A DNA stretch of 64,000 bases from Trichocoleus desertorum NBK24. Lineage in GTDB: Bacteria > Cyanobacteriota > Cyanobacteriia > FACHB-46. Both the position numbers and the translations under genes were made by a program. A model generated the notes under the pieces. The model saw only the letters and a list, made by a program, of their open reading frames with translations, did not search any database and was not told the DNA's origin. Below, one piece after another: positions 22,869-27,979 of the stretch (positions within the stretch are counted from its first letter, which is position 1; each line of letters starts with the position of its first letter). The stretch lies in the NCBI RefSeq assembly GCF_030409055.1, contig NZ_CP116619.1, positions 405,628-469,627 of the forward strand. The letters run 5' to 3'.

Positions 22869-23035
22869 GAGTTTCAATCCATTCAGCTAGCTTGGCGATC
22901 GCCCACTTTCCTTTTGTTCTCTCCTATTAGACATCTCCAACCAACGAAGTATCTCTAGCGCGAGTGGTACAGATGGAATGGATTCTTGAACATGGGTGCA
23001 TTCGTCTCCTTCACCCCTTACCGAAAATATACGTT

Positions 23036-23542
23036 ATGGACCCCAAACAACTGAGTCACGAGTTGCGCGAAGGCCAAAGCCCTGATCTCGATCGCCGTCG
23101 GCAAATCATTGGCTTGTCGATGCTTGGCGCAACGATGGGACAGCTAGTTTCTCTTTATCAAACTGGCGTGATCGACCATCTGCCAGATCCCCCGGTGCCA
23201 TTTTTCGATGCCGATCGCGTGGATGCATCGAACTATGCCTACAGCCGCTTCAACAGCCCCGATGGCCCCGTTATGTTGGTTAACTACGGCATTACCGCTT
23301 GGCTAGCCTCAGCAGGGGGCCAAAACCGAGCTAAGGAGACGCCCATTCTCCCGATCTCGATGGCGGTCAAGATTTTGATTGATGCTTTGGTCTCCACCGA
23401 ATTAGCTCGCGAAGAGTGGAGTGAAAACAAAGCCTTTTGTGAGTACTGTCAGGTAGCTACGCTATGCTCGTTTGCTTCTTTGGCGCTAGCGATGCCCGAA
23501 GTCAGCACTGCGGTTCAAACGCTAATGGGGAATAAACAATAG
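23036..23542 (+). CDS. VKOR-like small membrane protein
   Basis: A 168-residue protein resembling the short cyanobacterial proteins annotated as vitamin K epoxide reductase family. REGQSPDLDRRRQIIGLSMLGATMGQ leads into a first hydrophobic segment, followed by a loop rich in Pro and Asp (HLPDPPVPFFDADRVD) and a final hydrophobic helix that starts with CEYC, the C-x-x-C redox motif position of VKOR proteins. If it is a thiol oxidoreductase it would work with quinones in disulfide formation; the length is less than a full VKOR domain, so function is uncertain. I start at the ATG of MDPKQLSHE; the 24 residues upstream (from a GTG at 22964) look non-coding. Confidence 0.7.
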   Translation: MDPKQLSHELREGQSPDLDRRRQIIGLSMLGATMGQLVSLYQTGVIDHLPDPPVPFFDADRVDASNYAYSRFNSPDGPVMLVNYGITAWLASAGGQNRAKETPILPISMAVKILIDALVSTELAREEWSENKAFCEYCQVATLCSFASLALAMPEVSTAVQTLMGNKQ

Positions 23543-23867: not shown

Positions 23868-26861
23868 ATGTTTCAACATATGTGGGTTGCTCAAGCAGCT
23901 ATCCCTGTAGAATCCTCAACTTTGGCATTCCTTTCAGGGTCTCAGTTTTTCATTGCCCTGATTGCTGGGGTCGCGATGGCGTTTGCCTTTCAGTTGGTGC
24001 TCACCAACCTCTCTGTCGCTGCTGGTATTTCCGGGGCCGCTGATGCCCTAGACAGCGATGCCGACGGATGGGGAAAGAAAATTCGTAGAGTAGAGGCCAA
24101 AGTCGGCACTGGCACAATCTTGATCGTCAATACGGCTCTCTTTACGGCCTGTTTTCTTGCGGTCAAGCTGACGCTCATTCACGAAAGCACTCTAGGTGCG
24201 ATCGTCGGTGTAGTGATTTGGTCAGTTTATTTCTTACTATTGTTCTGGACGAGTTCCCGCGCCGTGGGTTCGTTGCTAGGTGCGGTGGGAAGTACTGCCA
24301 GCTCGGGTCTGCAAGGTGTGGCAGCAACAATGGCAACAGCCTTGAGTGGTCAAGCTGCGACCAGCCAAATTGCCAATACCGTAGAAGCTTCGGTTGGAGC
24401 AGTCAGAAAAGAACTGCAATCGGTATTAGAACCCGATCGCCTGCGCGAGAACTTGCAGGATTATGTCACCAAGCTGCAACTACCTCAAGCTGACTTCAAG
24501 GATATTTCCAGTCAGGTCTTGGGGCTACTAGAGAATTCCAATCTGCAATCGGTTGCTAGCTCCGTGACCAATGCCACAACTGATGCAGCTACCAATTTAA
24601 CCGCTACGCCTGATCTCCTCAGCTTGGTGCAGTCTGCCACACCAGAGGAGTTAAAAAGCGGTAAGTTACGGGAACGCTTAACCGATTTGATTGGCAATGG
24701 ATTACTAGGTAACGGACAAGGCAATGGAGGCAGTCAGGAGAAGCAGGGAGGCAGTTTACGCGATCGCGCCTTGCAACTGGGTCTGGGTTCGTTAGTCTCC
24801 ACCTTGGCTCGACGGGTGGATCTCTCTGATCTCGATATTGAGAAGATCACAGAGCAATTGAGTTCCTTCCAACAGAAAGTAGGAGAGCAGGCGGGCCAAG
24901 CGATCGGTGCAGTTAGCCAAGTTCGTTCTTTCTCCCCCATCCGCACTGATATCGAAAATTATTTGCTCAATTCTCCTTTTTGGTATCTCAGCCCAGAAGG
25001 TCTCGATCGCGGATTCCGAGAAGCGCTTTACGACCCCAATGCGGATGCCAGAGCGGTGCGGCAGCAATTAGAGCCAATTAACCGCAGCTACTTTGTGGAG
25101 GTGCTGACTCGTCGAGATGGCATTACGCCAGAGCAAGTGAACGATATTGCCGATGAAGTAGAAGTGATTCGGCAGGAAGTTTTGGATACGGTGCGGGCAG
25201 CAGAAGCACAGGAGCGATCGCAGGAATTGCGACAACAGGTAGAAACTTACCTCAGTTCTGCTCCCAAAGAAGCTTTGAGCGCTGAGAGAATTCAGCAAGA
25301 CTTTACCGCACTCCTAGCCGACCCTGAAGCCAGCTATGAAACTCTCGGCAATCGCTTACTCCAGTTCGATCGCGATACGTTGATGCAAATGCTGATGGCG
25401 GGACGACAGGACCTCAGCCAGGAGGAAGCAGAGCAGATTCGCAGCGAACTGATGAACGTGCGCGATCGCTTCCTGAATGAATCAGAAGAGACTTGGAATC
25501 AACTGCAAAGTCAAGCCTCTGGCTTTCGGCAACAGGTAGAATCCTATCTCCGCGAGACCAATCCTGCTGACTTCACGCCAGATGCGATCCAGCAAACCTT
25601 GCAAAGACTGCTGAATGCACCGGAAGCGGGCTCTCAAGCTCTGCAAACTGGGCTAGGCCAGCTAAATCGCGATACCTTGCGGCAGGTGTTGTCGCAACGC
25701 CAAGACATCAACCCAGAACAAGTCGATCAACTCCTGGATCAATTTGAATCTGTGCGCGATCGCCTACTCCACGCTCCCCAACAGCTCACCGAGCAAGCCA
25801 GAGCCCAGGTTGATCAACTGACGAACCAGATTGCAGACTATCTACGAAATACCAACCTAGAGGAACTCGACCCCAAAGGGATTCAGCGAGATCTGCAAAC
25901 CCTCTTAAACGACCCCCAGACAGGTGCCTATGTTCTGCGCCAACGGCTCTCCCAGGTTGATCGAGAAACGTTGGTGAAATTGGTCAGCCAAGGCAGCGAT
26001 CTAAATGAGGAGCAGGTCAATCAAACCATTGACAAAGCCCAGGAAGCAATCCGTCAAATTGTTCGGGCTCCCCAGCGCTTAGCCACCCGCACCCGCGATC
26101 GCCTGCGAGATTTTCCCACAGAACTGTCAGATTATCTACGCCACACGAATCGCGAGGAACTGAATCCTGAAGGGATCAAGCGTGATCTACAACTGTTGAT
26201 CAAACAACCACGGGCAGGGGTAGAACAGTTAGGCGATCGCTTGGGTCAAGTCGATCGTGAGACCATCGTGGCGCTCTTATCGGAACGAGAAGACATCTCC
26301 GAGGAAGACGCTAACCGCATTGTGGATCAAGTGTTGGGCCAGATCCAATCAGTGCGAGACCAGGTGACGCAGCAAGCGCAGAAAGTCCAGGATCGGGTGC
26401 AATCTCTCACCAGCAGCGTGACCGATCGCGTCCGCACCTACCTCAACGCCTTAGATCAGCCAGAACTCAACTACGAAGGCATCCAAAGGGATGTGCGGAA
26501 ACTATTCGATGACCCAGAAGCAGGATTCGATGCTTTGCGCGATCGCCTCAGCCACTTCGATCGCGAGACGCTGGTCTCTATCCTCAGTTCTCGCAAAGAT
26601 ATTTCTGAGGAGCAAGCCAACCGGATTGTGGATCAAATCGAGTCAGCCAGAGATAACGTGCTGCATCGAGCCGAACGACTACAACAGGAAGCGGAGAAGC
26701 AGATCAAAGCCGTGAAGCATGAAGCCAAGGAACAGGCAAAAGAAGTGCAGAAAACTGTAGCAACTGCTGCCTGGTGGTTGTTTGGGACTGCCATTACCTC
26801 TGTCGCCACTGCCGCGATCGCAGGTATCCTGGCCTCCAGTGGTTTTAACTTTCCAGGCTAG
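23868..26861 (+). CDS. Large membrane protein with six ~98-residue repeats
   Basis: 997 residues. The N-terminus has three hydrophobic segments (about 14-45, 82-105, 112-135), then a Gln/Ala/Ser-rich region and Gly-Asn-rich linker (near 285). From about residue 365 to 940 there are six repeats of about 98 residues. Each has a Y-L-x(8-10)-L-x-x-x-x-I-Q-R-D-L start, a (L/F)-x-D-P-E/Q-x-G turn, a (V/F)DRETLV-x-(L/I)-(L/V)-S helix and an ISEEQAN-R-I-V-D-Q helix, ending in a charged Arg/Gln-rich coiled stretch. A last hydrophobic helix (WWLFGTAITSVATAAIAGIL) closes the protein. I do not recognise a named family. The repeat body is very likely helical and extends from the membrane. A terminator hairpin follows. 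Confidence 0.88.
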   Translation: MFQHMWVAQAAIPVESSTLAFLSGSQFFIALIAGVAMAFAFQLVLTNLSVAAGISGAADALDSDADGWGKKIRRVEAKVGTGTILIVNTALFTACFLAVKLTLIHESTLGAIVGVVIWSVYFLLLFWTSSRAVGSLLGAVGSTASSGLQGVAATMATALSGQAATSQIANTVEASVGAVRKELQSVLEPDRLRENLQDYVTKLQLPQADFKDISSQVLGLLENSNLQSVASSVTNATTDAATNLTATPDLLSLVQSATPEELKSGKLRERLTDLIGNGLLGNGQGNGGSQEKQGGSLRDRALQLGLGSLVSTLARRVDLSDLDIEKITEQLSSFQQKVGEQAGQAIGAVSQVRSFSPIRTDIENYLLNSPFWYLSPEGLDRGFREALYDPNADARAVRQQLEPINRSYFVEVLTRRDGITPEQVNDIADEVEVIRQEVLDTVRAAEAQERSQELRQQVETYLSSAPKEALSAERIQQDFTALLADPEASYETLGNRLLQFDRDTLMQMLMAGRQDLSQEEAEQIRSELMNVRDRFLNESEETWNQLQSQASGFRQQVESYLRETNPADFTPDAIQQTLQRLLNAPEAGSQALQTGLGQLNRDTLRQVLSQRQDINPEQVDQLLDQFESVRDRLLHAPQQLTEQARAQVDQLTNQIADYLRNTNLEELDPKGIQRDLQTLLNDPQTGAYVLRQRLSQVDRETLVKLVSQGSDLNEEQVNQTIDKAQEAIRQIVRAPQRLATRTRDRLRDFPTELSDYLRHTNREELNPEGIKRDLQLLIKQPRAGVEQLGDRLGQVDRETIVALLSEREDISEEDANRIVDQVLGQIQSVRDQVTQQAQKVQDRVQSLTSSVTDRVRTYLNALDQPELNYEGIQRDVRKLFDDPEAGFDALRDRLSHFDRETLVSILSSRKDISEEQANRIVDQIESARDNVLHRAERLQQEAEKQIKAVKHEAKEQAKEVQKTVATAAWWLFGTAITSVATAAIAGILASSGFNFPG

Positions 26862-26935: not shown

Positions 26936-27979
26936 TTACAGATTTTCTAGCCCTTCATCCTTAAAGACTATATTTTGTTTCGTAGCAAAGCCATTGAGAA
27001 TCAAGTTCCGTAACGTTGACACTTCCTCGTCTATACTTTGCGCGTTGTCTTCATACTTCGTTGCGGCTTTATATAAATGTAGCTTTTCCATCCGTTTGGC
27101 GATTTGGCGGGAGAGCGTCACTTTCTCTTCTAACGCTCGCACAGCCGACCATAAAGCATTTTCTATATTCTGAGTTTGTTCAGATAAAAAGACATCAGCC
27201 GTAAAAGCATGTCCTACATGGCAACGAAACCGAAGTAAATCCCCATTGCCGATCTGCCAGATACTGCCGTTACACTCAGGACAGCTATAGGTTGTGCGAG
27301 TTCCAATTTTCTCAACATTGTCCAGAAACTCCTGGGTATTCATCTGCTGTTCAGCAATGTTAGATTCAAATTCTATTTCTTGAGTAACCGGGTACGCTTT
27401 CTCCGCCGCCGCTGGTTCTTTCGTCAAAGACACCAACAACTCTGCAATCCCTGTCAATTTTAGGCAGTGGTCTACCTTGGCATACCTCAGCGCACTGTTA
27501 GGCATGCTAGAATATTCTGCTTCCAGCGGGTCTTGTACGACTGTCACTCCACCCCGTTTTTTGACTGCTTGTAAACCTACAGTGCCATCATCTAAATAGC
27601 CCGTGAGCACCACCCCAACCACTCTAGGGCCATAGGCGCGAGCGGCGGAACGAAACAAGGCATCGATCGCGGGTCTAAATCGATTCTCTTGCGGTCCCCG
27701 CACTATCCGCATGTATCCTTGACTAACCAACAAATGGTGATCAGGCGGAGCGATGTAAATTCGCCCTTTTTGAATTTCCTCGCCATCTTGAGGATGAGTG
27801 ACCGAGAAGTTACTAATATCTGAAAGAATTCGTGGCAGCAAACTAGGTGCATTAGGTGCAATATGCTGAACAATAAAGATGACAGCATTGAATTCATCAG
27901 GTAGGCTGGTCACAATTTTGCTGAGTGCTTTAAGGCCACCTGCCGAAGCCCCAATTACAATGATGTCATGTCCAGACAT
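26936..27979 (-). CDS. CheB-type methylesterase without receiver domain, C-terminal zinc-finger-like tail
   Basis: Residues 1-190 form a CheB catalytic domain (protein-glutamate methylesterase of chemotaxis receptors): the triad is Ser12 in GASAGG, His39 in VQHIAP and Asp130/131 in LTGYLDDG. There is no N-terminal receiver. Residues ~225-270 contain CPEC and RCHVGHAF, a probable zinc-binding knuckle common in stand-alone CheB homologues, and the C-terminus is helical. Stand-alone CheB proteins often pair with CheR in non-chemotaxis signalling; no CheR is in the window, but a hybrid kinase follows on the same strand 57 bases away (upstream in transcription), suggesting a joint signalling unit. 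Confidence 0.92.
   Translation of the reverse strand: MSGHDIIVIGASAGGLKALSKIVTSLPDEFNAVIFIVQHIAPNAPSLLPRILSDISNFSVTHPQDGEEIQKGRIYIAPPDHHLLVSQGYMRIVRGPQENRFRPAIDALFRSAARAYGPRVVGVVLTGYLDDGTVGLQAVKKRGGVTVVQDPLEAEYSSMPNSALRYAKVDHCLKLTGIAELLVSLTKEPAAAEKAYPVTQEIEFESNIAEQQMNTQEFLDNVEKIGTRTTYSCPECNGSIWQIGNGDLLRFRCHVGHAFTADVFLSEQTQNIENALWSAVRALEEKVTLSRQIAKRMEKLHLYKAATKYEDNAQSIDEEVSTLRNLILNGFATKQNIVFKDEGLENL

Follow-up and report, generated by a model that had tools for sequence, protein, structure and literature searches.

Few proteins are known through which cyanobacteria control how their thylakoids are spaced, curved and attached, and two of these, CurT and AncM, are met here. CurT (also CURT1 or CAAD) is described, in the portions of the literature available to us, as a membrane protein with cytoplasmic helices, and PMC9950537 and PMC13353191 report that it bends thylakoids and that convergence zones depend on it. 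AncM, the Synechocystis anchor between thylakoid and plasma membrane, has a homologue in Synechococcus elongatus according to the accessible part of PMC10708155; we liken it to the protein described below by description only, as a possible analogue in role. Photosynthetic membranes are the site of CAAD proteins (PMC4893482, PMC6331805) and also of Hlips, the high-light-inducible, chlorophyll-binding proteins.

We analysed a window of 64,000 nucleotides from the cyanobacterium Trichocoleus desertorum NBK24, which holds the gene of a long repeat protein (hereafter the window protein). A CAAD gene is the neighbour of many members of subfamily A, one of the two subfamilies of this protein; the linked CAAD proteins are unlike it, being about 145 aa long and without repeats, and the CAAD domain (PF14159) is not listed for the window protein among matches with E up to 1. 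The parts of the protein, a membrane module and helical repeats, are ordinary; their combination and the gene partners are unusual. We tentatively read it as a photosynthetic-membrane scaffold used in stress, together with CurT-like and Hlip proteins, a reading that we consider possible and somewhat short of probable.

The repeat array

The gene translates without an internal stop (Table 1). A first-pass annotation, made from the letters alone, had described six helical repeats between residues about 365 and 940, and the repeats are far beyond chance: the best 60-residue self-match scores 179, whereas 200 shuffles reach no more than 68, and a leave-one-out repeat profile gives 55-101 bits per repeat, against at most 14.0 in 1000 shuffles. 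All six were recovered, each with about 92 aligned residues and at a spacing of 96-102 aa, starting near residues 354, 450, 549, 647, 745 and 847, and the zone that they occupy, residues ~354 to 940, agrees with the earlier one.

Table 1. Features of the repeat-protein gene and its flanks (positions in the window)
Feature	Position	Strand	Remarks
VKOR-type gene	22964-23542		upstream of repeat gene
Repeat-protein gene	23868-26861	+	997 aa; ATG start at 23868 matches MFQ/MFH start of relatives
Membrane helix 1	23937-24017	+	residues ~24-50; hydropathy, conserved in family
Membrane helix 2	24105-24176	+	residues ~80-103; hydropathy
Membrane helix 3	24189-24260	+	residues ~108-131; hydropathy
Degenerate repeat remnant	24420-24563	+	residues ~185-232; 2.0 bits, barely detectable
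Partial repeat	24753-24893	+	residues ~296-342; 13.0 bits
Repeat C, first of six clear repeats	24927-25202	+	repeat profile, leave-one-out
Repeat D	25215-25493	+	repeat profile, leave-one-out
Repeat E	25512-25787	+	repeat profile, leave-one-out
Repeat F	25806-26081	+	repeat profile, leave-one-out
Repeat G	26100-26387	+	repeat profile, leave-one-out
Repeat H	26406-26681	+	repeat profile, leave-one-out
Long charged helix, repeat H to membrane	26607-26765	+	low-confidence predicted helix 914-990; composition
Membrane helix 4, AAWW motif	26766-26837	+	residues ~967-990; hydropathy; conserved in family
CheB-type gene	26936-27979		downstream of repeat gene

The copy-number comparison among cyanobacteria that the first-pass annotation had suggested showed that seven or eight near-complete repeats are usual: of 106 members, 66 carry seven and another 33 carry eight, and the window protein has six plus two remnants. 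Member length has a median of 1040 aa and a 5-95% range of 1009-1076 aa. At the position of the first remnant, relative L005 has a good repeat of ~54 bits, which puts the ancestral number at seven or eight; most of this first repeat has apparently been lost in the window protein and is kept in members such as L005. In a comparison of 16 proteins, repeats at the same position were 55.8% identical across proteins and those at different positions ~35%, with repeat H the most conserved (mean identity 68.5%). The excess of same-position identity indicates that the positions are old and individually specialised. Judged from these alignments, the array is old, fixed in number and not fast-changing; that the repeats keep their positions and their number is itself directly supported.

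Separate conservation of each position is also what would be expected if the repeats held different partners, as in a docking platform that binds soluble or membrane partners (assembly factors, Hlip complexes, phycobilisomes, stress enzymes) and plays no part in membrane shape. The Hlip and CAAD neighbours described below could then be cargo, not co-shapers. This is the main rival of the scaffold reading. Against it, none of the repeats gives a meaningful match to any known binding domain, and it has no known partner; we regard the platform as unlikely, if still a serious contender.

Membrane anchor and orientation

Hydropathy bears out the membrane helices that had been seen to frame the repeats: there are three at the N-terminal end and a single one close to the C-terminus. 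Starting from three short proteins (211-237 aa) that match the N-terminal helices, we arrived at a stand-alone family of four-helix proteins; 22 of 117 genomes hold strong matches to it (counted among the matches listed) and 27 of 117 any match. By profile comparison, helices 1-3 resemble this short family (hhalign 96.2%, E 2.4e-9, score 61.8, with 40 block-shuffles reaching at most 17.3). Helix 4 alone gives 63.7% and a score of 30.2 (40 block-shuffles at most 21.2), and helices 1-3 joined to helix 4 give 97.6% and 82.1 (40 block-shuffles at most 21.9). The same helices in swapped order score 62.3, and a CAAD control 16.7. The match of helix 4 alone is modest, and it is the joined comparison that carries the step to a single module, of which helix 4 is likely the ancestral fourth helix.

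The short proteins (211-248 aa) are thus like the window protein in that helices 1-3 and 4 match as a unit; they differ in having no repeats and a loop 3-4 of only a few tens of residues, and in lying elsewhere in the genome. They were found at L164, L165, L166 and L171-L192, with the copy of the window's own genome at G000:C1:2018045-2018686, and were also matched, more weakly, in other classes of the phylum. Three of them were scanned against Pfam and NCBIfam, and no family was found there. A 581-aa protein beside L166 with a repeat-like match turned out to be a NACHT protein and was set aside as a chance match.

Because the N- and C-terminal helices match one short protein, the repeats can be described as a loop of ~830 aa inserted between helices 3 and 4. 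Two intermediates are known: a 370-aa protein with one repeat between membrane helices (L162:6959-8071) and, in a genome of another class, a 376-aa protein with half a repeat (L163:1761-2891). These findings are most simply read as growth of the repeats within loop 3-4, and the short four-helix family is likely the ancestor of the anchor module. The protein would then be an example of how a small membrane protein becomes a long scaffold through repeat growth in one loop.

Charge is strongly biased: over the 106 members, the mean number of lysines and arginines is 9.6 in the 40 residues before helix 4 and 0.25 after it, and 3.0 in loop 1-2 and 0.02 in loop 2-3. This bias places the repeat body on the cytoplasmic side and, together with the four-helix match, indicates that both ends most likely lie in one membrane. 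The first-pass annotation had raised the possibility that a single chain bridges two membranes, its N-terminal three helices in one and its C-terminal helix in the other. A long helical body between two anchors would suit such a bridge, and there is a precedent in AncM, which, as the available part of PMC10708155 has it, attaches thylakoids to the plasma membrane in cyanobacteria. Against this, the four helices match a single short membrane protein as a unit and in the right order only (82.1 versus 62.3), and the charge bias argues for a cytoplasmic body; bridging by one chain therefore appears very unlikely. The other suggestion of the first-pass annotation, that the body wraps a partner, may still apply. 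The architecture and the homology of the module are directly supported by these comparisons.

Predicted structure

AlphaFold2 gave an all-helical protein, built of short helices and, between them, linking helices of ~45 residues, consistent with the helical character claimed earlier; mean pLDDT was 54.2 for the full-length model, and only repeats C-E came near 75-90. A second model, of residues 648-997 from 90 sequences, was worse (mean pLDDT 50.5). Foldseek with the full-length model returned no PDB match at E ≤0.001. In the VIA comparison the best row was a designed repeat (Z 8.1 over 86 residues, rmsd 2.6), with no other row outstanding, and neither by fold nor by sequence did any solved structure rise above what helical proteins are expected to give. 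This is no proof of a new fold.

Several likenesses were weighed. Munc13 MUN, exocyst Sec6 and the Myo2/5 cargo (GTD) domains, which are CATCHR-like tethers, matched repeats C-D in VIA with Z 6.0-6.9 over 150-180 residues; such values, from a model of mean pLDDT 54, are in the chance range for helical bundles, and there is no kinship in sequence. Annexin repeats gave weak profile matches to repeat positions ~36-75 in the PDB profile search (E 0.22-1.9, not significant), and the Pfam annexin family is absent from the listed matches of the window protein. The HU family (Bac_DNA_binding, PF00216) was matched at E ≤0.001 by 23 of 25 members; the window protein scored 16.1 bits against a cut-off of 22.4, and relative L002 passed with 27.6. 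Where match positions are listed, for two proteins, coverage is limited to 2-40 or 3-34 of the 90 positions of PF00216. DNA binding was rejected on this ground: only the first helical hairpin matches, and not the whole HU fold with its DNA-binding arm.

The linking helices could also be of the apolipoprotein type, amphipathic and coating membranes or lipid droplets, since 12 of the 25 members give a weak Apolipoprotein match, the best of them at 7.1e-11, as does the window protein at 6.5e-5. For the window protein, however, the Apolipoprotein A1/A4/E model (PF01442) reaches 23.2 against a curated cut-off of 90 bits, and the linking helices show only modest moments and a mean hydrophobicity below zero, which makes a lipid-handling role of this kind highly improbable. 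The sole match in PHROGs was a tape-measure protein. We discarded this match together with those to apolipoprotein, TerB and phage scaffold proteins, as all are either below cut-off or typical of long helices.

Spread of the family

A profile search found relatives in 59 of 386 cyanobacterial genomes, with 327 giving no match. In a set of 59 related genomes, 19 carry the family; by a count made by eye, these are 19 of the 41 larger genomes and none of the 18 smaller than 4.0 Mb. The profile of the repeat alone, proposed as a check in the first-pass annotation, matched 27 of 146 genomes, and the listed matches were nearly all in long frames of the size of the family. There was no family match in plasmid records. 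The genome of the window carries a second, full-length paralogue at G000:C1:1204029-1207187 on the minus strand (locus L063, subfamily B).

No Pfam or NCBIfam model covers the window protein above the relevant cut-off. The repeats had been called a type not recognised, and this holds: they are absent from both collections and have no convincing kin among solved structures by sequence or by fold. The family is real, well conserved and uncurated, and, judged by Pfam, NCBIfam and literature searches on related topics (it has no name to search by), undescribed.

Gene neighbourhoods of the two subfamilies

A tree of 106 members, built quickly under LG+G4 with SH-aLRT as the only support, placed 44 rows including the window protein in subfamily A (fork support 94) and 60 including the paralogue L063 in subfamily B (99), with two members on long branches. 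We examined 103 regions, 100 of them fetched around members, to which the window and two Scytonema loci were added; 43 belong to A and 60 are others, four of the latter being outliers with short or broken members. The tree and these regions indicate that there are two ancient subfamilies with different gene partners.

A stand-alone CAAD gene lies in 18 of the 43 A regions and in none of the 60 others (the PF14159 match in Scytonema has E 8.4e-33). A BON lipoprotein gene occurs in 17 A regions, and a gene for a stress protein of the YflT type in 19, with one further case among the other regions, within 6 kb; YflT genes lie in 21 of the 103 regions overall. Of the 18 CAAD-linked regions, 17 have the cluster divergent from the repeat gene; in the remaining one, from a genome of another family (G035), the repeat gene, CAAD, YflT and BON follow one another on one strand, and in G178 the YflT gene is directly downstream of the repeat gene. 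Linkage to CAAD requires 4 changes on the tree, at least 3 of them forced by well-supported branches; the linked regions come nearly all from family f31 and its nearest kin and so represent few independent events. YflT matches are multi-copy, with 2-8 in each of nine genomes, so that CAAD is the stronger neighbour signal.

The partners of subfamily B are Hlip genes, whose products are proteins of the photosynthetic membrane. In 27 of the 60 non-A regions an Hlip gene and the repeat gene are arranged head-to-head, the nearest strong Hlip match being 353-747 bp away, and all 27 come from a single B clade of 30 rows (families f31 and f27). One Hlip gene was checked and matched PF00504 with 23.9 bits (cut-off 22.3); two A regions have only weaker and distant Hlip-like matches. 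HLR1-like light-response boxes, matching 15 or 16 of 16 positions, were found upstream in 20 of the 27 Hlip-linked regions; the counts are 1 of 76 for the remaining members and 3 of 174 for the sequences upstream of other genes at the same loci. Subfamily A shows no such enrichment, with 1 of its 43 upstream regions reaching at least 15 of 16, and the best box is 12 of 16 upstream of the window gene and 11 of 16 upstream of its paralogue. The boxes may serve the Hlip genes alone.

Profile searches found no CAAD, YflT or Hlip gene in the window and no CAAD or Hlip neighbour at L063; the single CAAD match in this genome is far from the repeat gene. For these two genes, which have neither CurT nor Hlip neighbours, the functional context is therefore borrowed from relatives. 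The two subfamilies and their neighbourhoods are observed directly.

A putative scaffold of the photosynthetic membrane

That two paralogues are tied to different photosynthetic-membrane genes and to stress genes makes a role in thylakoid stress the most likely, and a cytoplasmic arch of fixed length fits a scaffold or spacer. In the mechanism that we propose, both termini of a four-helix membrane module would face the lumen or periplasm, and its loop 3-4 would be enlarged to an arch on the cytoplasmic face, made of ~830 residues of helical repeats in tandem. The arch would serve as a surface scaffold of fixed length on the photosynthetic (thylakoid) membrane, its repeats binding each other across or along membranes or binding membrane-shaping partners. 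Such a scaffold may help to keep thylakoid spacing, curvature or assembly zones under stress, with a CurT-type protein as partner for subfamily A, the window protein included, and Hlip proteins for subfamily B. The thylakoid location, the scaffolding, the partners and the role in stress are what we infer.

Several observations weigh against a scaffold. The family is missing from many cyanobacteria (327 of 386 without a match). CAAD, matched in the Synechococcus elongatus control, may well do without the repeat family. The models are weak, with mean pLDDT of 54.2 and 50.5, and no match in structure or sequence points to a scaffold function. The YflT and BON genes among the neighbours of subfamily A also suggest general envelope stress; the protein could belong to the plasma membrane or envelope at large, for example as a mechanical or osmotic buffer, and not specifically to thylakoids. 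CAAD and Hlip neighbours belong to photosynthetic membranes, as far as the available part of PMC4893482 goes, and such an envelope protein seems to us distinctly unlikely.

A bolder form of the scaffold reading is a dedicated system of membrane architecture, in which two ancient paralogues, one tied to CurT and the other to Hlips, would form fixed arches of seven or eight specialised repeats, and arches on facing membranes would pair and so set thylakoid spacing or attachment under light, cold and drying. We hold this to be rather unlikely. The family, being widespread, conserved, uncurated and tied to CurT-type and Hlip genes, provides concrete targets for knockouts in tractable filamentous strains.

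Observations on CAAD proteins

Two stress clusters may serve as examples. One (L084:8057-13785) contains CAAD (CurT-type), BON lipoprotein, YflT and DUF2382 genes; the other (L002:997-5142) contains CAAD (CurT-type), BON lipoprotein and YflT genes and one for a 140-aa hydrophilic protein. In two regions (L202 and L204) a canonical CurT lies near prk- and petH-like genes, as read by eye, and the CAAD protein of the stress cluster differs from it. The Anabaena low-temperature cluster all0457-all0459 (lti46.2) was considered as a counterpart of the stress cluster and rejected, as all0458 is a Dps homologue and all0459 an 83-aa surface protein. Alr4119, given in the available part of its source as the Anabaena CurT localised to the honeycomb, is probably the other, canonical CurT, not the repeat-linked one. 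In the control genome of Synechococcus elongatus, the CAAD match is above the cut-off, and it stands despite the statement, in the accessible part of a 2023 review (PMC9950537), that this organism is without CURT1 homologues.
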